From Dactylellina haptotyla (lineage: Eukaryota > Ascomycota > Orbiliomycetes > Orbiliales > Orbiliaceae), in contig CM062388.1 in the NCBI GenBank assembly GCA_031310005.1, forward strand, positions 2,418,001-2,482,000: a stretch of 64,000 nucleotides of DNA. The letters are read 5' to 3'. The notes below the pieces were generated by a model, which was not told the origin of the DNA, did no database searches, and saw only the letters and a list, made by a program, of their open reading frames with translations. Of this stretch, positions 11,956-27,810 are shown in pieces. A program made the translations under genes and the position numbers. The first letter of the stretch is position 1. Each line of letters opens with the position of its first letter.

Positions 11956-12092
11956 ACCCGTCGCCGGCAGTTGGTCTCCGAGCTCGAGATTCTGTTCGCC
12001 CTTTTCGGGCCTGTCAAACCCTGCTTTGGGAATCTCACGTCACCAATTGCAACACGCGGCACAGCTATCGAGATTGCACAAGATACGAGCAA
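11956..12092 (+). repeat. Decayed copy of a 140-bp direct duplication (copy 1)
   Basis: This matches 12226-12366 nearly base for base, 270 bp downstream. The first ~80 bp are identical by eye. Copy 1 lacks four single bases relative to copy 2, so it no longer keeps the same reading frame. Confidence 0.85.
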
Positions 12093-12225
12093 CTTCGCCT
12101 ACCGCTAGGCGAAAGTCGTCGCCAAGGGGGAGAAACCATCCCTCAATTCCGTTCGCGATTGAAACACCAAATTCGCCTATGAGATAGTACAGTTCTCGGC
12201 CTCAAGCTCTTACTACGAGGAGCTT

Positions 12226-12366
12226 ACCCGTCGCCGGCAGTTGGTCTCCGAGCTCGAGATTCTGTTCGCCCTTTTCGGGCCTGTCAAACCCTGCTTTGGG
12301 AATCTCTCGGTCACCAATTGCAACACGCGGCAACAGCTATCAGAGATTGCACAAGATACCGAGCAA
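12226..12366 (+). repeat. Coding-like copy of the 140-bp direct duplication (copy 2)
   Basis: This partner of 11956-12092 keeps an open frame with good codon quality (SELEILFALFGPVKPCFGNL, then RQQLSEIAQDTEQSIAHRQ). That frame extends back to about 12160 and forward to a GTACCT donor at 12385. An intron 12385-12475 ending CTCCCAG would join it in phase 0 to the downstream gene. Confidence 0.8.
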
Positions 12367-13900
12367 TCCATCGCTCACCGCCAGGTACCTCATAATCGTC
12401 GTCGTATACCTCGTCCTCCACCGCAAAATTACAATCGCCCCACAAGCAGGATGGAACGGCTTCACGATCTCCCAGCGACGACCCTTCCGCGATCTATTCC
12501 GCCGGAGGGGCAGACAGCCTATCCCTCGTCGCGGGTCCGATGCTTGGGATGATAACATCTCAGAAGAAGAACTCGGCATTCTACGCCCTACCCACTCCAG
12601 AGCACCCTCCGATCCGTTCCAGGACCCTTATGACCCCTACAGCCCTTACCAACAGCACACACGTTCCTCTTCATATCATTCCAACCATTCCACCCTCGAA
12701 CGTGATACATCCAGCCGCGCCCGCCCCTCGCTACCTAACGACTTCTCTGACGACGAAGACCAATCCTCTCTACCCCACTACTCCGCCCCGCCACCCGCAC
12801 ATTCCTACAACCGCCCCGGTACAGCCACCCCGTCGACATCGGCCGCGAACACCTCCCAACCGCGCTTCACACCGACTTCCTCCCCGCCGCACGGCACCCC
12901 TCCTCCAAGTATAATCCACCACATCGACTCCTTCCGCATGGAAACCCTAGAAACCACGATAACCGATATCCGTCTGACCCTCGAAAGCGCAAACACAATA
13001 TTAACACAAGTCTCCGACCTCCCAGACGACGACTCGGACGACGACTCTTCCACCCCGCCGCTACTAAAACCGCAAGATCTCGCGAAAATCAACGAACTCT
13101 CATCCCTAGTAACTTACCACGAGGGGCTCCTCGAAGTATACGACGGCAGCTCCGGCGGCGGCAGCAGAGGCACAATAGACAGCTATACCGCGCGACTACC
13201 GAAATTCAAAACCCTCGTAGCGCAGGGTATGGCGATAATTATGGCAGCCGAACGGCGGCGAACGCGGAGTACCTCGCACAGCAGCAGCGCCGGTGCCGGC
13301 GGCACGTTTAGTTCCGGTATAGGCAATACTTTCGCCAGCTTCTTCTCTGGATACGGTGGTGCCGGTGGTGGGAACACAATAAGTTCCACGAGGAAGGATA
13401 GTACGGCTACTACTAGCACTATAACTGGAAGACCGCAGGAAGTCAAGAAGACGCAGTTGTTAAGTCGCTATGCGGACCTGAAGAAGACGGAAACATTCGC
13501 GAAGAATAGTTTACGACAGCTGCTGGAGCGACGGGAAGCGCGGAGGGGCAGTCCGGGGAGTGAAAACCGGGAGATGGAGTTGGAGGTCCGTAGTTTGGGA
13601 TTGCGCGCGTTCAGGGAACGAGTCGCGCTGGGCAGAAAATTAGGCGTGGAGGATGAAGATGAAGAAGGAGAGGAAGTTTGGGGTCTCTCCGGGGTAGATG
13701 GAGAGATTGGCGGTGAAAGGGTCGTGGTTAGTCCTATCCCCGGTCATCAGGGGCGAAGAACAGCATCCAGAACGATAGTTGAAGAAGACAGCGACGATGA
13801 ACCGCCGCTGCCCCCGCCGGCATATGATGATGGCGGTGACAGAGGCAGGAGTAGAACTGCTGCAGAGCAGGAGCTATTGGATAGTAAGGAGCTGCGATGA
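12296..13900 (+). CDS. Uncharacterised low-complexity protein, start uncertain
   Basis: The frame is open for 534 codons and ends at TGA 13898-13900. From about residue 60 onward the composition is convincingly coding: a basic patch (RRPFRDLFRRRGRQPIPRR), an acidic ISEEELGIL, a long Ser/Pro/Tyr-rich disordered part, and a helical core (ETTITDIRLTLESANTILTQ). A second helical part near 385-460 (LKKTETFAKNSLRQLLERRE) and an acidic tail follow. The first 60 residues look like non-coding sequence read through (ARYLIIVVVYLVLHRK), so a spliced start is likelier: a phase-0 intron 12385-12475 would join an upstream exon ending TEQSIAHRQ to RRPFRDLF. I do not recognise the family; coiled-coil scaffold is the most I would say. 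Confidence 0.6.
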   Translation: MGISRSPIATRGNSYQRLHKIPSNPSLTARYLIIVVVYLVLHRKITIAPQAGWNGFTISQRRPFRDLFRRRGRQPIPRRGSDAWDDNISEEELGILRPTHSRAPSDPFQDPYDPYSPYQQHTRSSSYHSNHSTLERDTSSRARPSLPNDFSDDEDQSSLPHYSAPPPAHSYNRPGTATPSTSAANTSQPRFTPTSSPPHGTPPPSIIHHIDSFRMETLETTITDIRLTLESANTILTQVSDLPDDDSDDDSSTPPLLKPQDLAKINELSSLVTYHEGLLEVYDGSSGGGSRGTIDSYTARLPKFKTLVAQGMAIIMAAERRRTRSTSHSSSAGAGGTFSSGIGNTFASFFSGYGGAGGGNTISSTRKDSTATTSTITGRPQEVKKTQLLSRYADLKKTETFAKNSLRQLLERREARRGSPGSENREMELEVRSLGLRAFRERVALGRKLGVEDEDEEGEEVWGLSGVDGEIGGERVVVSPIPGHQGRRTASRTIVEEDSDDEPPLPPPAYDDGGDRGRSRTAAEQELLDSKELR

Positions 13901-14390: not shown

Positions 14391-16347
14391 TTATCCCAAA
14401 AGCGAGCCAAGCAATCCGCCGGACGTCTTACTGAGCCCGCCTTTGACCTCATTGGACTCAGTGCTATAAACATAGAAAGCAATGGTTAGCAACCCAAGAA
14501 CGTGACTACAGCGGGTTTGGGTCCGCTCTGGCAAGTGGGGTGGAATATGTTGACCGCATATTCCATAGTTCTAGACATACATTCCAAGGACGTTCCCGAC
14601 TATTGATAGATCAATTGTTAGCAACGTATTAACCATCGCGGGATCCGTTCACTGGATAAGTATTGATCGAATGTAGCATGCAAATTTACTTACTGACTCT
14701 GAGCCCGCGTACCTTATTTACCACCTCTATAGTATGCCCAGCCGGAATCATAACGTCGACATCGCCTGTGAGTAGATTAATTGTTAGCAACTTACTAACT
14801 ATAGCGAGATCCTTTTACAGTCTCGTAAACAGACTTGTGTTGTGCCGAGATGTGTTTGCGTACGCTTTAATGTGGCAACCTCAACAATTCTTTTGGATAA
14901 TTGCCCACCTATCGATAATCAGTTGTTAGTAATTTAGTAACTGTAATATGATTCCTTTATCAAATATCTATTAAGAAATATGTTAACTGTATAATTACAT
15001 ACTTTTTAATGAGTCCTTAGTCTGTAGTCCGAGTGGTTTATCCGATTTTACCCCGCTAATATTTAGTAGAGAATCGTTAGGGTTTGGAGTTTGAGCAGTA
15101 GGATTTTGTATTTGATTGACGACATCGCGCTTGAGGACTGATTCGAGAGTCTCCTTTGGAGATACGGGAACTGAATCATTGAGTTTTCGTGCTGGGCTTT
15201 TAATAAAGGCGATAAGTTTATCCAAATCCACGCCTGATGCTTTTAATAGTTTGCTTATTTCCCTGACTGAAATAGATCGATTGTTAGTAACTTAGTATCT
15301 ACAGTGAGATTATTTCGCTAAATGGGTGTTGATAATCATATCATATGGGCAAATATTCATACCACGTTCCAATAGGTCTATAAATAGAAATACCGCCTTT
15401 GGACCCAGTTTGTTGGCCAGTTGGTTTAACATAAGCGGTTCTAATAACTTCACGCCAGGTTTGGGAGCTGGAGCATTAGGATTTTTGGTTAGGTTGCCAT
15501 CCACGCCTGCTGCTTTTAATATCTCTTGTAGTTTCGGGGCTGTGAACAGATAGATTCGTTAGTAGCTTAGCAGATACAATGAGATCACTTCACTGATTGT
15601 GCGTTAATGATCATATCATATTGGCTGTATATGTAGGTACCTTCAAATACGTTATTAGTTGATGGCCTACGTCGTCTGCGCGCCCTTTTCTCCATCATAT
15701 TTCCTATTAGGCTATCATCAGTATCTTGCGACATTTTGTTAAAGCCGTCAAGTTGTTCCTCGCCTACAAATCGATCAACCGTTAGTATCTTAGTAGTTAT
15801 AATAAAATCCCTTTACTAGCTAGCTGTTAATAAATATATTATATTGATATAGTTTATACCTTCCACTGGTTCAACAGTCTCTGGCTCAAGCCGCTTTTCT
15901 AGTTTTGACGTGGCAATATTCCCTATGGAATCGTTAGGATTTAGAGTTGGAGTATTAGGAGATTGTAATATACTATTCTGGAAGCTAGTTATCCCGTCTA
16001 TTAATAGATCAATCGTTAGTAAATTAGTAGCTTCAGCGAGATATCTTCACTGAATAGTCATTATTGGGCACATCATATAATATCCATATGTACGCACCTC
16101 CCAACAGACCTCCAAATTGAGGTTGTGGCTTTGAATCTCGATTTAGCCCAGGAATATCTAATCGCGGAGCCCGGTTTGCGTTGCTACTGACCAGGCTCTT
16201 AGAATTGAGAGGTAGTACTCCAGGTAGGTTATCTCCTCCAGGTAGTCGAGGTAGTCCTCCAGGTCGTTTATTCGGCACGGGCGGTCCCACCGGGGCCGCA
16301 ACTATAAGGGTCGCGGAAGCGAGAAAAACAATTGATTTAAGATTCAT
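14391..16347 (-). CDS. Secreted Kex2-site propeptide built of repeated exon-intron modules
   Basis: Nine exons were found: 16347-16098, 15997-15860, 15763-15641, 15539-15363, 15266-15003, 14908-14864, 14765-14694, 14599-14581 and 14463-14391. They sum to 1,161 nt, or 386 residues. A signal peptide (MNLKSIVFLASATLIVAAP) opens exon 1. Introns 1-7 are all phase 1, so exons 2-7 are symmetric modules; intron 8 is phase 2. Exons share sequence: NPNDSIGNI in exon 2, DDSLIGNM in exon 3 and NPNDSLLNI in exon 5; EILKAAGVD in exon 4 and KLLKASGVD in exon 5. Five KR sites (118-119, 155-156, 275-276, 323-324, 332-333) suit Golgi Kex2 cleavage into peptides. Exon 1 and exon 9 both end near GGLLG. There are no cysteines in the reconstructed protein. 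An earlier in-frame ATG at 16374 spoils the signal peptide and is not preferred. The family is unknown; secretion and processing are inference. Confidence 0.75.
14464..16097 (-). repeat. Eight related introns in one gene
   Basis: The introns are 16097-15998, 15859-15764, 15640-15540, 15362-15267, 15002-14909, 14863-14766, 14693-14600 and 14580-14464 (100, 96, 101, 96, 94, 98, 94 and 117 nt). Most share a 3' half with a GATCTC-like block, then a double branch-site-like motif close to CTAAGTTACTAAC, then AATYGATCTATT and AG. Introns 1, 3 and 4 also share an ATATGAT block in the 5' half. They are longer than most introns elsewhere in the window and look alike because whole exon+intron units were copied. 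Confidence 0.85.
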
Positions 16348-16467
16348 TTTCAAGCTCCTCGAAAATGCTTTCAATAGATCAGAGGTTGGGCTATGTATAT
16401 CTTATTTTTAAAATACTTGGTGTTTGAATTGTAAAGTCGATGAATGTTTAAGAAGTTTTGAATGTTG

Positions 16468-16474
16468 ATTTATA
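16468..16474 (-). promoter_or_regulatory. TATA-like box of the modular secreted gene
   Basis: TATAAAT on the minus strand lies about 120 nt before the ATG at 16347. Confidence 0.4.
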
Positions 16475-16659
16475 ATGGCAGACTCTATAGGTATTCTGAA
16501 GCTATGAATTTATCTCGCTTTGTAAAGATGGCAGGAGAAAACTATATATATTATTCACTAACAATTATCATTTACGGTAAACTTCAAAACACTAGTAAAT
16601 TGATCCAAAAATCAAATATCTAGGACGCAGATCAATATATTCTCTATATAACCACTCTA

Positions 16660-17000
16660 ATACTTTTATCAAGAACACCTATTACTCTCGTTAGGCTCCC
16701 ACTGTTACAATGTTGTAAACCGTGGTTATTTCTGCCCCTTACGCGTTCTTCAAATCCGATTTTGTTGAGTTTTCCAATACGATTTTGTGTTGGCTGGATT
16801 TGCACAGGATTGTTCATACATGCATCCAGGGTCAATCAAGTTTCGGGGCAGTATTCTTGTTTTTGAATCAGACACCAAGGGGGAATAAAAGAACCAATTG
16901 AACCATGTCTAAATATATTTCTATTTAATTAAATTTATGAGTATTTTAGAGCGAGAATTGAAAGCATTTCTCAGGTTTATAGTCCAAATTACGAATGGTA
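16660..17000 (+). repeat. Decayed direct repeat, left copy
   Basis: This pairs with 17370-17720 at an offset of about 730 bp. Shared landmarks are a TGTTA(C/T)A-TTGTAAA start, a CTGCCCCTTAC block, TTTCGGGGCAGT, and an ATTTTAGAG(C/A)GAGAATTGA block. The sequence between landmarks has drifted. It could be an old solo LTR or a MITE-like relic; the edges are not sharp. Confidence 0.55.
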
Positions 17001-17369
17001 TACATCTACAGCGACCTGCTCATTAAGTAAGCTGTCGACATCAAACTTGGGTACTTTAGTTCAAATAGATCTCAATCGATAATGTGGAGAAAATGAGCCG
17101 CCATACCTTCAAGCAGGCAGAGTGATGTTCTGGATATAGTGAAACGTGTTTGTCAGTGAATATTCTATTGTATGTTCTAAAGTAGTCCATCTCAGCTTAT
17201 TAAAGAGGGCAGCAGATAATCATCATTCACCATCAATGTCACAGAGTGTACATTAAAAGAGAGCATTAGCAAATTTGTTTGAATGAAATTTCTATGAGGC
17301 AATGGCCAGTTCGTCAATTCCTCTCTACAACACGATGATTTTCAAAAGCAGATATTGCTCTTCAGACTC

Positions 17370-17720
17370 CCGTTGTTATATTGTAAATTGCGGTTATTGC
17401 TAGTCTTGTGGGTGTTACCTCTGCCCCTTACTCGTCCCGCGGGCCAGCACGCTCCGCGCGGAGTCCCTTACTGATCAAAGTGTTCTCATAGAATACAACA
17501 AATTGTGTTGTGGATCAGCACAGAGTTAATCGAATTGTTCATTCAGGCGATAACGATGAATGGGCCAATCGCGGTTTCGGGGCAGTTGCCTAGTTTGTGG
17601 GCCAGACGACAAGGTAGGATAAATAATTTGTGAATTGTGCTCATCCTGTGTTGGCAAGGGTTGTGGGAATTTTAGAGAGAGAATTGAGAGCATTCCGGAG
17701 TATTCCTTGGGTCTGTGACG
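17370..17720 (+). repeat. Decayed direct repeat, right copy
   Basis: This is the partner of 16660-17000. It carries an extra GC-rich stem-like stretch near 17435-17465 (CCGCGGGCC...GCTCCGCGCGG) that the left copy lacks. No target-site duplication could be fixed by eye. Confidence 0.55.
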
Positions 17721-17950
17721 GAAAATATGAGAAAGTGGCATCAACGCAACGACCTTGCTTGATCATCCACCTCGTAGATTACTCGATCGACATCGGGAGA
17801 GAAGCAATTTTTTTATTAAGAACGGGCGAAATGGGCTGATAAATCGCCGTCTTAAATGCATGAAAATATGATTGTGAGAGGGATATAATGCGTATCAATC
17901 AATATGTGTATCTCCTATCCTCTTTGATAATGGGATGAATTTTAGAGTAC

Positions 17951-17967
17951 TATAAAAACCTATAAAG
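17951..17967 (+). promoter_or_regulatory. Paired TATA-like boxes of the short modular-family gene
   Basis: TATAAAAA and TATAAAG lie ten bases apart and about 150-165 nt before the ATG at 18118. The leader after them shares a CAAGTATTTTAAA stretch with the leader of the head-to-head relative at 16347. Confidence 0.4.
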
Positions 17968-18117
17968 CACGCTAATCCAACCCTATCATCTCAGTTCATA
18001 AATATTCTTCAACTTAACAATTACAGGAATTAAATATTTCAAGTATTTTAAACACTGCGGTACCGGACATATAGTCTATTATTCAAAAATTCTTTAACAA
18101 TTCCAATACACTCTAAA

Positions 18118-18550
18118 ATGCGTCTTACACTATTTCTTATCTTTGCCTTTACAACTTTGATAATTGCGGCTCCCCTAAATCCAATCTTACCAAATGGAGG
18201 ACTCGAAAGAATTAAACTACCTAATGGCTTGAGTCAGGATGAAGCGGTGGAGCCCAAGGCTGTGGACAAGAAGGCAAAGTTGTTGGGGCGTACGTAAATT
18301 TCCACGATATGCGATTTCTTGATCAATAGTCCCCCAGTAAGAGGATCTCACTATAGCTACTAAGTTACTAACGATTATTCTATTGGTAGGCGGGCAAAAA
18401 GAGATTGAGAGGGGTGTAGAGGATAGGATTGTAATGCACACCGCCGATCAAGTGATCGAAGACGCGGTAGACGAAGTTGAGAAGGTTTTCGAAGGTATCG
18501 CTGAGGATGACGGTCCATCCAGTGATGATTTCAAGCTAGGGCATGCGTAA
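18118..18550 (+). CDS. Short relative of the modular secreted protein
   Basis: There are two exons, 18118-18289 and 18390-18550 (172 + 161 nt), giving 110 residues. The signal peptide (MRLTLFLIFAFTTLIIAAP) lines up with that of the nine-exon gene (MNLKSIVFLASATLIVAAP). The first exon also ends LLG, and the intron is phase 1 and exactly 100 nt, as intron 1 is there, with the same CTAAGTTACTAAC end. Exon 2 is acidic and helical (DQVIEDAVDEVEKVFEGIAE) and stops at TAA 18548-18550. It has only dibasic KK, no KR, and no cysteine. It stands head to head with its longer relative, 1.77 kb between start codons. Either it is a truncated copy or a minimal family form; function unknown. Confidence 0.65.
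18290..18389 (+). repeat. Ninth copy of the repeated intron
   Basis: This intron has donor GTACGT and acceptor GGTAG. It carries GATCTCACTATAG followed by CTACTAAGTTACTAACGAT, the same 3' half as the introns of the nine-exon gene on the other strand. Confidence 0.85.
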
Positions 18551-19149
18551 AAAGCCGAAATCCTGAAAGGTACGTAAATATATTTACCTCTGTCACAATT
18601 CCAGAAATTGGCGGATCATTAGAATCAAAGGCATTAATAGAAGCGTTAGTAAAGGCATCATGGGCGTGGTAGTCACGGGCAGGTTCAAGGACTGCATTCT
18701 GTAGCAAGACCCCTCGTATTTTCAGGAATGATCGCTCAGATGGTGGTAATTTCTAGTTTTCTTCGGATATTGCCACAATCCCTATTGCAGCATCATATAG
18801 TTGATTTATATCTACTTTTAATGTGCTAAAACTTAGAGCCAATGCAATATTAATTGAGTCCTCAAAGCCTGTAGTCTAAATTTTTGAATCGATTCTGTTA
18901 GAAAATATATCCTTAGGTGTTGAGCGAGAAACAACGACCGCTACGACCATTTGATAAACGGAAGTAGCGAAACAACTAGAAATCCAAGATGCACAAAATT
19001 TGAAAACTTACAAGTAGGGTCGAGTTTCTCGATGTATCATTGAGGATATCAACAAGCCTTGCCGGGTCACTCGCAAAGCTTACCATTAAGTTTCCCACTC
19101 CCTGTGCCACGACTTCACCATAAATCTATTTGGCGCTGAGACTACTCAT
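18531..19149 (-). pseudogene. Broken two-exon gene, unknown family
   Basis: An ATG at 19149 opens MSSLSAK, then a TAG, then IYGEVVAQGVGNLMVSFASD and on to a GTAAGT donor at 19011. A 136-nt intron (branch TTCTAAC, acceptor TTTAG) joins in phase 0 to 18875-18531, which reads on (STLKVDINQLYDAAIGIVAI, later KLPPSERSFLKIRGV) to a TGA at 18531-18533. A second in-frame TAG follows SEEN. The frame is otherwise whole over about 160 codons, so two point changes seem to have closed a real gene. Each TAG could be a former TGG tryptophan, a change that repeat-induced point mutation would give, but that is inference. Its 3' end overlaps the stop of the plus-strand gene by 20 bp. No homologue is recognised. 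Confidence 0.45.
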
Positions 19150-20096
19150 ATTATGATAAATAACTGCCAGGGATCAATTTAAACGATTTTGAAGGTGGCT
19201 TATATAAGAATTTCGGGTGATTGTAGCCACATTATTAAGTTGTAAATCTATATTATTCAAACGAAGTTGATGGGCGGATAGCGAGCTATTTATGTCCTTC
19301 TCCGCTTCTGAGTTGGGTACACAGAATCGCTATCTTGGGTCATTCACTTGCGCAGTAACTATCCCAGCTAGATTATTTAAAACTGAATATCACATTGGAT
19401 ACGATACGTAGTAGATAGAGCTCATACTCGTGTAAGACAAAGTAAATAACATGGGTGAACAGTGTTTAACCTTGAGCTCAGGCGTCTCTCGTGCCCGGCT
19501 ATAGAGTTCCCACTCAGAATATTAATCTCTCGCGAAACATTCACATCTATTAAAACACGAGGGATTCTATTTACCCTGTCGTTAAAAATTCCCGAGATCG
19601 CACACCGGATCAGCTGAGATTTCGGCACTTCGGAATAGCTGAGTTGTGGGGTCAAATCTTGTCTCGTAAACCAGCCGCGAAGCACGAAGATCAAAGCTCG
19701 AATATAATCGAACACGGACGCCATGGCGCGCGCCACATCGCACACAGGAAGATGTTTCTATGTTGCACTGCAATAGTTGCACCACCACATCCAATATTGC
19801 GAGTATTGATTTTACACGATACGGAAACGAGACTCTCGGGTGGTCTATGTCCCCGTTATATCGGTCGCGGTCGGCATGAAGCGTAGCGCCCCACGACCAA
19901 CTCAGCTGAGTTACCCGGCACAAAGGAGTATCTGTAATGGGCAATTCTCAGCGAGAATCGATAAATAGATATACCTTATTTACAAGCTCGTCATGCTCCA
20001 TAAATTTTGAACTGTCTAACATTATCGTTCATATATAGTGCAAACTAAATTCGTGTATATACCAAAAATATCTAACTATAACAGAAAAATCCCCTT
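19150..20096. other. Intergenic
   Basis: Overlapping frames on both strands at 19422-19944 are uninterrupted for up to 120 codons but show no protein character in either direction. Nothing else was recognised. Confidence 0.4.
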
Positions 20097-23221: not shown

Positions 23222-26200
23222 TTAATAATAACTATCCCACCCAAAACTAACCGCGTTCGCACTGAGCTTATACTCAGGTTTATCAGCAGTATCATAACTA
23301 TGCCCTTCCCGTCTATTCAGATCCTCTGTATCCTCCCCTTGCTGCATACCCGGCGGCAATGGTAGCTCTGGTAGCTCTGCAATCATGGGGTTCATATCAT
23401 ACGGCGACTTGGTGTTATTCGAATGCGCGAAACCCGTAGATCCCGGCATTTCCATTATGTGTGAGGGGGGTTGCGGGAGCGGTGGGATTTGTGGGTATGA
23501 TGTTTGTTGGTTATACGCGGACGCTGATTGAGGGGTGTTGGGTGTAGCTGGGAAAGTATTCGCGTGATGTAGCTGCTGCGGGGGCGGCTGCGTGTAGTTC
23601 ATTTGGTATTGTTGCTGCTGCTGCTGCTGCTGCAGGGTAGTCTGAGGGAATGATTGGTGGATCTTTGTAACCGTTGGGGTAGAAGTTTCGTGGAATAGAT
23701 GCGGGGCATGGATGGCTTGGTTCGCAATCGTGCTATGATGACCTGCTTGCTGGTTTTGGAATTGCGATGTTGGCGGCTGGTGGGCTACCATATTCGTAGT
23801 TGTGCCTGCGGGAGCCATGTTTGCAGTTGGCGTGTGAAAGGAAGCGGGGAGAGAGCCCTTTCTGACAGTGAGACCTGGAACGTCGACGCCTGGTGCAACG
23901 TTTTCGAAGTATCCTTTTGGAATCTCGGGTGGGGTCGGAGGGAGGTTCTGCTGGGGTAGTGCTGCCTGCTTGGGCAGCCCTGAAGGCGCTATTGGAGCAA
24001 CAGGTGCTGGCGGGATGTCCAGCGGGGCGACTGACTCCTGAGCTGGGAAAGACGGCGGGGGTGGGGGTTGACCGAATGGAAGAGAAGGTGGGGGCGGCGG
24101 CGGAGCGAATGCTGGATTAGTGAAAATAGTCTCATGAGATTTTGGCTGCTTCTGCGTCAACGGTTCCGTTTCATGGGCCGTGGGCTCTTCTACTAGCGGT
24201 TCCGGTTCTCCAGAGTTAAATTTACGCCGCTGGACAGCCTTGAGAGGAGGCGGTTTCCAGCCCTCCGGTTCCTCTTCCGCAATTTCAGTGGGCGTAGGTT
24301 GCGGTGTAAAGTTCTGTTGTGGTGCCGCCCCGGGGTTCTGCTGATAACCTTGCTGGGGAGCATTCTGAAAGTTCGGGTGACGGATAGGCTGCTGAGGGTG
24401 TGCGGGCTGGTTGAAACCTATGTTCGCCATGTTTTGAGCGTGCGACGGCGGTATCATCATTGATACCGGCCGCTGGACGGGCTTCCTCGACGGGAAGCGC
24501 TGGACCAGAGAAGACGACCTCTGAGGCTGGTTTGCACTTTGAGCGGATGACTGCGGCTGGCCCCAGGAATTCGAATGCGGCGGCATGTGAGGATGAGCCG
24601 GCGGCTGTTGCGCGCTACCAATCTCGACCGCATCGGACGGAAGACTGACGACGCTCCATCTGTGAGACGGCGGCTGGTGATTCTGGCCGTTGAATGAAGT
24701 CCGCGCAGGTGGGCTCTGCGGGTAGGATATCGGTACTGGCGAGTTGAATTGTGGGTCAGGCTTGGAGAACCCAGCGGCGCCGTCCATTTCATAAAAGTTC
24801 GTCTGCGGTTGCCTCGCTGGTGGTTGGTTGAAGCCTCCCTGCGTCGTAGAATCGACAACTTGCGGTGCAAACACAGAGCTTGTCCGTGAGAGTCTGTTCT
24901 TCTTGCTATCAATTGAAGAGGGCGAGGTTGGATTGACCTGATTATTCGGCACCTCATGCGCCTCAGGTTGATTCTGTAGCTTGACGCCCGGCGGCAGGTT
25001 TATCTGGACCTTTGGTTCCTCCAGCTCCTGGGCGTCCGGATACTTCGATCCGTTCTGTAGGCCCTGCAGCTTGTCTCGGTCTTGTTGTTCCTCTCTCCTC
25101 TTAGCCTCGATACGGCTCTTCTCCCTCCGCTGGACGGCTTGCAGGGCTGCCAGCTTGCGCTTCGACATCTGTTCGAGCTGCTTGGGGTCTGCCTGCACAC
25201 GTTGAGTCGGGGCGGAGGCGGTGTTCACGACAGAATTATACGGCGGCGGGGCGCCAATGGCCGCATTCGGGTCCACGGGAGCCTGGCCGATATAGCTCGC
25301 ATTTTGGACCGACACCCCGGGGCCACCGGAGAACACCTGTTGCTGGAACTGAGAGGGTGCGCAGGGAGCCGGCCCCAGTGTCGCTGGGACGTTTCCGGGC
25401 ACTTTATGTGCATGATGGACAACGGGACTCGTCGGGCTGGCGACCCCTCTCCCAGCTCCCGGGAGGCGTATTGCGCCCCTCGCTCTCGCAGCGCCTCTGC
25501 CTCTGGTCGCAACAGGGGCGTAGGCTTGCTGGGGAACGGCGGCGACTGCTCCTCCTCGCCCTCGTCCGCGGGGGGCACCTCTCCCTCTGGCCGGTGCTCC
25601 TCTTACAGCGTAGTGTACCCCAGCTGGCGCGGTAGCTGAATGCATCAACGGCGGCGGACACCCGGCACCAGCGCCGACGGTCCCAAAACTCTGTGAATGC
25701 GGCCTTCCCCTCAAAGCCGGTCCTCCCCGACCCCTCTGAGGTTGGGGTGGGTGCGCGCCTCTCAACGGTGCACCGTAGATGGCACCAGCACTGGCACCTC
25801 TGCCTCTCGCAGCAGCCCCTCCCCGTCCTCTCGCCTTCTTTACAGCCAGTGCAGCCCCTCCAACCAAAGCAGCTCCCGCGACTGCCGCCCCACCGACGGC
25901 GAAGGCAGTTCCCAAGCCGCGATGCGATGCGCCTTTATGTTTCCCGTGGCCTCCGTGTCCACCGTGCCCAGCGTGCTCCTCGGGTTCTTGAGGGTCCTCG
26001 TAATGCCCGTAAGTCGTCGGCTCTTGGTATTGTGCGTCCTGTTGACTATAATCGTATCCAGAGCCGTCATCCTGATCATAATAGGAGTTGCTTTCACCGT
26101 CGTCGTATGTTTCGTACGTCGTAGGTTCTTCGTAATATCCGTCCCCCGCATCCTGGCCAATGTAATTCGCGCTGTCATCGTAGTACTCTTCTTCTTCATA

Positions 26201-26461
26201 CGCCTCCTCGTACGCCTCCTCTTCATAGTACTCTTCCTCAGCGTAAGCTTCTTCTTCGATAGCGTACTCTTCTGCAGCTACCTCCTCGTCACCGCCGTCA
26301 TCGCCACCGTCGTCACCATCATCATCGCCACAGTCACCGTCCTCGTCAAAAGCGCCGGCTACCAGGCTCAGAGCTTTACCGGCACCACTACCCTTGCCGG
26401 TGAAGCTTTTGAGGGCAGCTGCGCCGAGTTTTACACCAGCAGACAGAAAGAAATCCTCCAT
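23222..26461 (-). CDS. 1,079-aa disordered protein with acidic, RGG and polyQ parts
   Basis: The frame is a single exon of 1,080 codons. The ATG at 26461 is preferred over the in-frame one at 26515 because it starts a helical head (MEDFFLSAGVKLGAAALKSF) of the kind seen in fungal proteins with a short conserved N-terminal motif. An acidic Asp/Glu/Tyr stretch (roughly residues 35-145) follows, then a His/Gly patch (HAGHGGHGGHGKHK), a hydrophobic Ala/Gly/Val segment that may dip into a membrane (AFAVGGAAVAGAALVGGAAL), and RG-rich repeats (RGRGAPRGRGRGG). A charged coiled coil (RKLAALQAVQRREKSRIEAK), long Pro/Gln/Asn disorder and eight consecutive glutamines follow. RGG and polyQ parts suggest RNA or condensate association, but this is inference only. 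No enzyme domain is visible. Confidence 0.8.
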   Translation of the reverse strand: MEDFFLSAGVKLGAAALKSFTGKGSGAGKALSLVAGAFDEDGDCGDDDGDDGGDDGGDEEVAAEEYAIEEEAYAEEEYYEEEAYEEAYEEEEYYDDSANYIGQDAGDGYYEEPTTYETYDDGESNSYYDQDDGSGYDYSQQDAQYQEPTTYGHYEDPQEPEEHAGHGGHGGHGKHKGASHRGLGTAFAVGGAAVAGAALVGGAALAVKKARGRGGAAARGRGASAGAIYGAPLRGAHPPQPQRGRGGPALRGRPHSQSFGTVGAGAGCPPPLMHSATAPAGVHYAVRGAPARGRGAPRGRGRGGAVAAVPQQAYAPVATRGRGAARARGAIRLPGAGRGVASPTSPVVHHAHKVPGNVPATLGPAPCAPSQFQQQVFSGGPGVSVQNASYIGQAPVDPNAAIGAPPPYNSVVNTASAPTQRVQADPKQLEQMSKRKLAALQAVQRREKSRIEAKRREEQQDRDKLQGLQNGSKYPDAQELEEPKVQINLPPGVKLQNQPEAHEVPNNQVNPTSPSSIDSKKNRLSRTSSVFAPQVVDSTTQGGFNQPPARQPQTNFYEMDGAAGFSKPDPQFNSPVPISYPQSPPARTSFNGQNHQPPSHRWSVVSLPSDAVEIGSAQQPPAHPHMPPHSNSWGQPQSSAQSANQPQRSSSLVQRFPSRKPVQRPVSMMIPPSHAQNMANIGFNQPAHPQQPIRHPNFQNAPQQGYQQNPGAAPQQNFTPQPTPTEIAEEEPEGWKPPPLKAVQRRKFNSGEPEPLVEEPTAHETEPLTQKQPKSHETIFTNPAFAPPPPPPSLPFGQPPPPPSFPAQESVAPLDIPPAPVAPIAPSGLPKQAALPQQNLPPTPPEIPKGYFENVAPGVDVPGLTVRKGSLPASFHTPTANMAPAGTTTNMVAHQPPTSQFQNQQAGHHSTIANQAIHAPHLFHETSTPTVTKIHQSFPQTTLQQQQQQQQYQMNYTQPPPQQLHHANTFPATPNTPQSASAYNQQTSYPQIPPLPQPPSHIMEMPGSTGFAHSNNTKSPYDMNPMIAELPELPLPPGMQQGEDTEDLNRREGHSYDTADKPEYKLSANAVSFGWDSYY

Positions 26462-27810
26462 TGCTCTGACAGGGACTACAAGCAGATACGAAGTCCGAGT
26501 GTCTGTGGCTACCAATCAATTGTCTGTGTAGTTGTATCGTAAATGTATCGCGGGATCGAACAATTGCGTTGTCGTTCACATTCCAACGCTATTACGGCCG
26601 CATCTATCCGCGTTGAATATCGAAAGTCCACTGCGTCGCGTACGTATGACCGGAATGCAAAGATATAGCTGGTATTAATACCAGTACGTCGTCAGAGGCC
26701 GGGAATATGGTATTATGGGGACTATCAAGAATCAGGAGAGTCGGTATCAAACCGGGAGCAGACGAGGCTATGAACTCCTCCAGTGCGGCTAACCAGCATT
26801 AAGTTTGCCCCTCGCAGAATCCCTATTCATATGATGGGCTCCCGTATTCCAAATCGCCCAGCCAATTCGGGATCCACCATGCGCTATGCGGCTCCAAGGT
26901 CCTTCTTTCAGCCCCACCTTAGTCCTCAAGTCCCCAGCCAGCGGGGGAGGCCAGCTGGTCGGAATCGAAATGAAATGAACTCGGAATGTCGCATTGGTAC
27001 AGGCCACAATCCCGCCAGCGCTTCCGCTGCTTAACTGCAGACAGTCATGCCACCAACATTGGTCGAAATTTGGGGCGAGGCTGCGGGCTTTCCTTCTGAG
27101 AATCTGTGCGAGGAGCGTTTCGAGCTTCAGCCGTTCCGCACTATTCCCGTTTCAAACATACGGGCTTGCCTGCTATTTGAAGGCAAAAACCTGCGATACC
27201 TTTTTATTTTTGAATCTTGCGTGATACTCTTAAGAAACATCTTGTAGAAGGACATTTTATTTTTGCCTCTTTTTAGTTATCCCGTCCTTTTCACTGTTCA
27301 TTCGGTGGAATGTAAATGTGAGAGGTACAGCTAGCCAGGTGCGAATCAAATGGGGTCAAAAAAAGTGTCCGACCTACATACCAAGCAAAGCTCCAAGCTG
27401 GCCCATTCCATTGGACTCGACTAGCGAAGAGCTAACTTGAAACCGCGGGATCAAAGAACAAAAATACCCCCAGCCCACGCGTCCCGACCAATTTAGGTCA
27501 CTTTTCAAAGGGTCGAAGTCCAGGCTCTTTTACTTGAAAAAAAAAGTCGCCTGGTGGACCGAGAAGACCAAAGGCGCATCTGCAAATGCGGCTCTTCGCA
27601 GGTTCGAATTAATATTCGAGGCTGAGATAAAACTTAAGATCGAGACTTTCCCCCGTGCACGCCCGCTTCCTCTCAGCATTTCCCCAGATTTTTTTGATTC
27701 CTTTATCGACGCTGCTCCAGAATATCGGTCCTTCAGGGATCTAAACGATTCGCTTCGAATTCCGATATCTTTAATATCCCGATTCAGAAGATACAGCTCC
27801 GCAACAAAAA
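26462..27810. other. Divergent promoter region
   Basis: This separates two genes pointing away from each other and should hold both promoters. No supported gene; short frames are not coding-like. Confidence 0.45.

Follow-up and report, generated by a model that had tools for sequence, protein, structure and literature searches.

Among the closest described systems, the small secreted salivary gland protein (SSSGP) genes of the Hessian fly are clustered secreted-protein genes that include an inverted copy; divergence falls on their mature region, and the leader, the exon for the signal peptide and the intron are kept (PMC2955719). Aphid bicycle genes encode putative effectors, carry many internal exons of one phase and diverge fast, and internal tandem duplication seems to have lengthened megacycle genes, which have intron positions in common (PMC9168663). 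Schistosome micro-exon genes (MEG) encode secreted proteins in numerous exons, most of which have a length divisible by three (PMC10526429). Paralogous introns of Plasmodium var genes outlast the similarity of their exons and appear as false positives of introner searches (PMC9860276), and sequence-related introns have been reported in ascomycetes (PMC8469720). Dactylellina haptotyla has 3.3 exons per gene and a mean intron length of 108 bp, and tandem duplication followed by rapid divergence, with repeat-induced mutation as a driver, has been proposed for its small secreted proteins (PMC3828140). The layout of the locus described here, for which an earlier note on this DNA knew of no named family, has parallels: SSSGP, bicycle/megacycle and MEG genes share parts of it.

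The window (64,000 nucleotides; C10:2418001-2482000) was analysed together with the genome to which it belongs (39.8 Mb, 11 contigs). Gene 1 (minus strand, 16347-14391) was read as nine exons (19-264 nt) and eight GT-AG introns (94-117 nt) encoding 386 aa, with introns 1-7 in phase 1 and intron 8 in phase 2; the eight introns, seven of them in phase 1, given in the earlier note were thereby borne out as a gene model. The 3' end of the gene is doubtful, and the putative intron 8 may be absent; when it is left unspliced, the frame runs from exon 8 into a TAG at 14573-14571. Coordinates of gene 1, of its divergent neighbour (gene 2) and of the region between them are collected in Table 1.

Table 1. 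Features of gene 1, gene 2 and the region between them (window coordinates; bits are leave-one-out profile scores unless stated otherwise).
Feature	Position	Strand	Description
Gene 1 exon 1	16098..16347	-	Signal-peptide-like start MNLKSIVFLASATLIVAAPVGPP, judged by eye
Intron 1	15998..16097	-	Phase 1 family member, 46.7 bits
Exon 2	15860..15997	-	NPNDSIGNI; KR site
Intron 2	15764..15859	-	Phase 1 family member, 37.2 bits; 67/93 identical to intron 5
Exon 3	15641..15763	-	DDSLIGNM; KR site; weak protein similarity with exon 2
Intron 3	15540..15640	-	Phase 1 family member, 44.9 bits; 74/96 identical to intron 4
Exon 4	15363..15539	-	EILKAAGVD
Intron 4	15267..15362	-	Phase 1 family member, 51.1 bits
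Exon 5	15003..15266	-	5' part similar to exon 4, 3' part to exon 2; longest internal exon
Intron 5	14909..15002	-	Phase 1 family member, 17.5 bits, E 1.9e-4
Exon 6	14864..14908	-	45 nt; KR site
Intron 6	14766..14863	-	Phase 1 family member, 34.7 bits
Exon 7	14694..14765	-	72 nt
Intron 7	14600..14693	-	Phase 1 family member, 37.6 bits
Exon 8	14581..14599	-	19 nt
Putative intron 8	14464..14580	-	Phase 2; outside the intron family
Putative exon 9	14391..14463	-	Based on open frame and splice signals only
Upstream region common to the divergent pair	16348..18117		Leader stretch alike, 41/48
Gene 2 exon 1	18118..18289	+	Paralogous signal-peptide exon MRLTLFLIFAFTTLIIAAPLNP; protein score 0/2000 shuffles
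Gene 2 intron	18290..18389	+	Phase 1 family member; family model 51.4 bits, E 6.9e-15; leave-one-out 47.1 bits
Gene 2 exon 2	18390..18550	+	Terminates at TAA

Introns 1-7 are related beyond their splice signals and form one family. Their lengths are 94-101 nt, they were aligned over 101 columns (mean column identity 73%), and all retain GT-AG ends and branch sites. Leave-one-out profiles, splice signals included, recognised each of the seven (17.5-51.1 bits) and the intron of the neighbour (47.1 bits); in introns 5 and 6 the profile match spans only part of the length. Intron 8 scored 1.8 bits (E 16), and a search with the family model at a cut-off of E<=10 did not pick it up; the earlier claim that all eight introns are related was thus not confirmed, and holds for introns 1-7 in the profiles. 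For the core comparison, donor, branch site and acceptor were cut off and the eight gene 1 introns and the gene 2 intron were compared in all 36 pairs; as control, 43 intron-like segments of this genome (pattern-defined GT...CTRAC...AG segments, not validated introns) were paired at random 20,000 times. Nine of the 36 pairs scored above every control pair, and the remaining 27 overlapped the control range. Introns 5 and 6 each have one core pair above all controls, and intron 7 has none (best score 23, with intron 6, reached by 66/20,000 control pairs). Since not every core pair beats the controls, the family rests on the profiles together with the links between the better pairs.

Mean pairwise intron identity rises from 0.50 in the 5' part to 0.62-0.71 ahead of the branch site and peaks at 0.94 in the branch site itself, which means that the 3' similarity is partly splice constraint. 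The branch-site pair TACTAANNTACTAAC is not unique, since it occurs exactly 10 times in the genome and only half of these occurrences (5) fall inside this locus; under a looser definition it was found in 6 of the 8 family introns versus 1 of 85 control segments. In a tree of the introns (200 bootstraps), introns 3 and 4 paired at 77% and introns 2 and 5 at 60%, the same pairs that are seen in the exons, with modest bootstrap support overall (42-77%). The idea that the introns conserve a hairpin ahead of the branch site was considered and rejected (79.2% paired versus 76.8% in shuffles, reached by 150/500), and none of the eight family introns was more stable than its shuffles (z-scores -0.88 to 2.04).

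Two exon pairs carry the similarity across splice junctions. The 3' part of exon 5 aligns with exon 2 over 108 nt, gap-free up to the donor (64% identical), and the alignment continues, with 4 gap columns, through introns 2 and 5 (67/93, 72%). Exons 4 and 5 are alike at their starts over 41 gap-free nt (71% identical), preceded by the alignment of introns 3 and 4 (74/96, 77%; 5 gap columns). On this evidence exon 5 resembles a complete unit, of which exons 2 and 4 resemble parts. Among 55 exon pairs compared as DNA, only 2-5 and 4-5 beat all 300 shuffles (0/300 each), followed by 2-4 (reached by 1/300) and 7-9 (2/300); exons 3, 6 and 8 have no partner near the level of the best pairs in this comparison. 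As protein (1000 shuffles), exons 2-5 were reached by 0/1000 and exons 4-5 by 11/1000, the latter match running through a stretch other than EILKAAGVD/KLLKASGVD, and exons 2-3 were weakly alike (2/1000 as protein among 45 pairs, 81/300 as DNA). Exons 3-5 lay outside the ten best protein pairs and the fifteen best DNA pairs. Of the exon likenesses that had been noticed among exons 2, 3 and 5 and between exons 4 and 5, 2-5 is borne out as DNA and protein and 4-5 as DNA; 2-3 is weak and 3-5 is not among the best.

Downstream of the eight family introns, the first 12 bases of the exons resemble each other more closely than did 5000 sampled sets of eight same-phase sites from gene 1 (0/5000) or 5000 sets of eight drawn from 85 pattern-defined acceptors elsewhere (0/5000); the last 10 bases before the family introns are less clear (43/5000 and 3/5000). 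The likeness of exon starts fits block copying and could also reflect a target preference of inserted introns. For the two pairs in which DNA similarity crosses the junction, duplication of exon-intron blocks is, on sequence grounds, well supported. For exons 3, 6, 7 and 8 we infer it from the introns and from the exon starts (about 12 nt); these exons have no clear DNA likeness, so that intron-only gain is possible there. The tandem copying of a phase-1 exon with its intron that the earlier note proposed is accordingly carried by two block pairs and is less well supported for exons 3, 6, 7 and 8; intron 8 lies outside the family.

Between exon copies, pN was 0.34 and pS 0.33 (48 aligned codon pairs; exons 2/5, 0.36 and 0.38; exons 4/5, 0.31 and 0.20), and pN was at least pS in 1113 of 2000 bootstraps. 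Differences numbered 51/149 in exons and 48/189 in introns, which is not significant (Fisher p 0.09), and the comparison of rates rests on the small sample of 48 codon pairs in two cross-junction block pairs. Between copies the exons appear to have changed without visible amino-acid constraint and no slower than the introns. The observation that introns are as well kept as exons is correct for the two cross-junction pairs (introns 72/77%, exons 64/71%) and is better read as freedom of the exons: the introns look well kept because the exons are hardly constrained, and pN close to pS accounts for the observation without special intron conservation. Repeat-induced point mutation was rejected as the main cause of divergence, as transitions exceed transversions only moderately (611 versus 392 summed over the intron pairs, and 22 versus 17 between exons 2 and 5), and this moderate excess gives no clear pointer to the driver proposed for small secreted proteins of the species. 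The repeat-induced point mutation indices of gene 1 (1.03 and 1.00) pass the usual thresholds, as do those of 7 of the 64 kilobases of the window.

Applied to the window, the family model found one strong member outside gene 1 (18290-18389, 51.4 bits; next match 9.4 bits). The family is therefore not confined to one gene: this eighth member lies in a divergently transcribed neighbour, gene 2, which was discovered through its intron and had been missed by a protein search of the genome with gene 1. The intron compared between the two genes agrees at 70/96 positions, and the leaders at 41/48, with a score of 32 just above the best of 1000 shuffles, 31 (0/1000). The signal exons are alike as protein (0/2000 shuffles) and not as DNA (310/1000). 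In this one gene pair, intron and leader are alike and the signal exon is alike only as protein; gene 2 exon 2 showed no significant likeness to the exons of gene 1. The region upstream of both genes holds a 34-nt direct repeat (16935-16968 and 17661-17694). The gene 2 protein had no relative at E<=1 (4 candidates scored). Past the gene 2 stop, a stretch at 18560-18600 (GTACGTAAAT) resembles the family donor end and gave no strong model match. Stop-broken open frames lie on the minus strand at 18530-19750, and the pieces tested had no Pfam match. A third gene copy seen by eye near 18850 was unsupported in self-comparison.

Further copies were sought in the 39.8 Mb. Searched as DNA, the family consensus had 5 hits, and two patterns that tolerated 3 mismatches at most had 7 and 3; every hit falls within this locus. 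The DNA query recovers 4 of the 7 gene 1 introns and the patterns 6/7 and 2/7. DNA searches with gene 1 and with 16360-19500, and protein searches with gene 1 (7 matches, all within gene 1) and gene 2, likewise returned this locus only. A 15-place pattern (3 matches in all) had one match on contig C8, a place to which the family model gives only 4.4 bits. Introners spread through the genome are unsupported, as DNA, protein and pattern searches stay in this locus, and the lack of any further copy in 39.8 Mb argues against dispersed introners; the searches miss some known members, so that remote copies elsewhere are possible. Close direct repeats at E<=1e-4 occurred in 4 of 20 sampled 10-kb stretches, each of them a stretch with an open frame and without a CTRAC...AG signal. 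Other repeats seen were a 160-nt direct repeat in the window (11956-12109 and 12226-12385), whose copies are 93% identical and lie where an open frame (12296-13900) begins, and a coding repeat at L033 9423-9997, cysteine-rich and some 70 codons long, which occurs in three copies within one open frame.

The gene 1 protein, searched in a form with one extra residue at the first junction, matched no Pfam family above cut-off. No relative at E<=0.1 was found among 8000 candidates scored (annotated proteins only, 0.55-1.75 times the query length), and on these searches the protein is an orphan. In contrast, a Dactylellina haptotyla protein is 92% identical over 99% to the protein encoded at 23222-26482, and after it comes one of Arthrobotrys megalospora at 43%. 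Judged by this single protein, the DNA belongs to D. haptotyla, which traps nematodes, or to a close relative. The gene 1 protein has no cysteine in 386 aa and holds 6 KR pairs versus 1.6 expected (6 reached by 32/10,000 shuffles), the segments between which, by eye, are poorly kept repeats and not near-identical. A probable role as a secreted effector, possibly cut by Kex2, is consistent with the signal peptide judged by eye, the absence of cysteine, the KR pairs and the lack of known relatives.

We consider it likely that gene 1 is an orphan secreted-protein gene that grew by repeated duplication of exon-intron blocks, accompanied by one inverted gene duplication and fast exon divergence. 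Each block would have been a phase-1 exon with its phase-1 intron, copied most simply when related introns took part in unequal crossing-over or replication slippage; gain or loss of a block keeps the frame, as all family introns are in phase 1. The exons would then have changed nearly without amino-acid constraint, and exons 3, 6, 7 and 8 would have lost the visible kinship that the introns still show. A separate inverted duplication would have produced the divergent neighbour, which has the first intron in common with gene 1 and resembles it in signal exon and leader, and which encodes another mature protein. The product may serve as an effector in predation. Going further, the interchangeable phase-1 introns might act as a recombination scaffold on which exons are added, dropped or skipped in frame, as a fungal counterpart of bicycle and MEG genes. 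This extension is doubtful; if true, copy number and isoforms would vary between strains, and arms-race divergence would fall on the exons.

Compatible with block duplication, though improbable in our judgement, is a precursor of several Kex2-released peptides (KEP-like) in which exon copying is repeat copying: the excess of KR pairs (6 versus 1.6 expected, 32/10,000 shuffles) speaks for it, and the stretches between them lack, by eye, the near-identical repeats given as the mark of such precursors in PMC6339444. Local multiplication of introns alone, copied into the gene as an introner-like element or by reverse splicing, would explain why introns of 94-101 nt are alike over their length while exons 3, 6, 7 and 8 do not resemble the other exons. 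It is unlikely given the similarity that extends 108 and 41 nt into exons, and given that one DNA and two pattern searches, of incomplete sensitivity, found no further copy in 39.8 Mb. Still less do we favour a decaying gene, a pseudogene locus with freely drifting exons, to which pN close to pS and the stop-broken frames beyond gene 2 would point: a 386-aa frame is maintained through nine exons, exon alignments are ungapped beside gapped intron alignments, and introns 1-7 keep GT-AG ends and branch sites.

If block duplication is the right reading, gene 1 is a compact fungal case of gene lengthening by in-frame exon-intron duplication, in which the introns hold a record that the exons have lost, and intron families could lead to those relatives of orphan secreted proteins which escape protein searches. 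A literature search by titles and abstract starts, with subscription papers mostly outside its scope, recognised no comparable fungal case. Fungal introner-like elements are likewise families of similar spliceosomal introns, and they have stable intron secondary structure; the family introns here are no more stable than shuffles. Introner-like elements are dispersed in unrelated genes and alike only up to about the borders of the intron, whereas this family occupies one locus within the limits of the searches, and the similarity in gene 1 passes the intron borders (by 108 and 41 nt; in other pairs at exon starts only). In Plasmodium var genes the outlasting introns are common to genes of a large family; in the present locus they are found within a single gene and the gene next to it. 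Bicycle genes carry paired CYC motifs, and the gene 1 protein, having no cysteine, has none. The internal exons of bicycle genes are almost all in phase 2, with about 17 exons on average, unlike the phase 1 of gene 1 (PMC9168663). Most MEG exons measure 15 bp and none exceeds 81, with introns up to 5 kb (PMC10526429), a short-exon, long-intron layout that gene 1 does not have (exons 19-264, introns 94-117). The SSSGP genes are from an insect, and in PMC2955719 the pattern is one between family genes and not an intron family inside one gene; unlike theirs, the signal exon DNA of the fungal pair is not kept (310/1000 shuffles). With these differences, the layout of gene 1 is unusual for a fungus and resembles the fast-evolving secreted-protein genes of parasitic animals.
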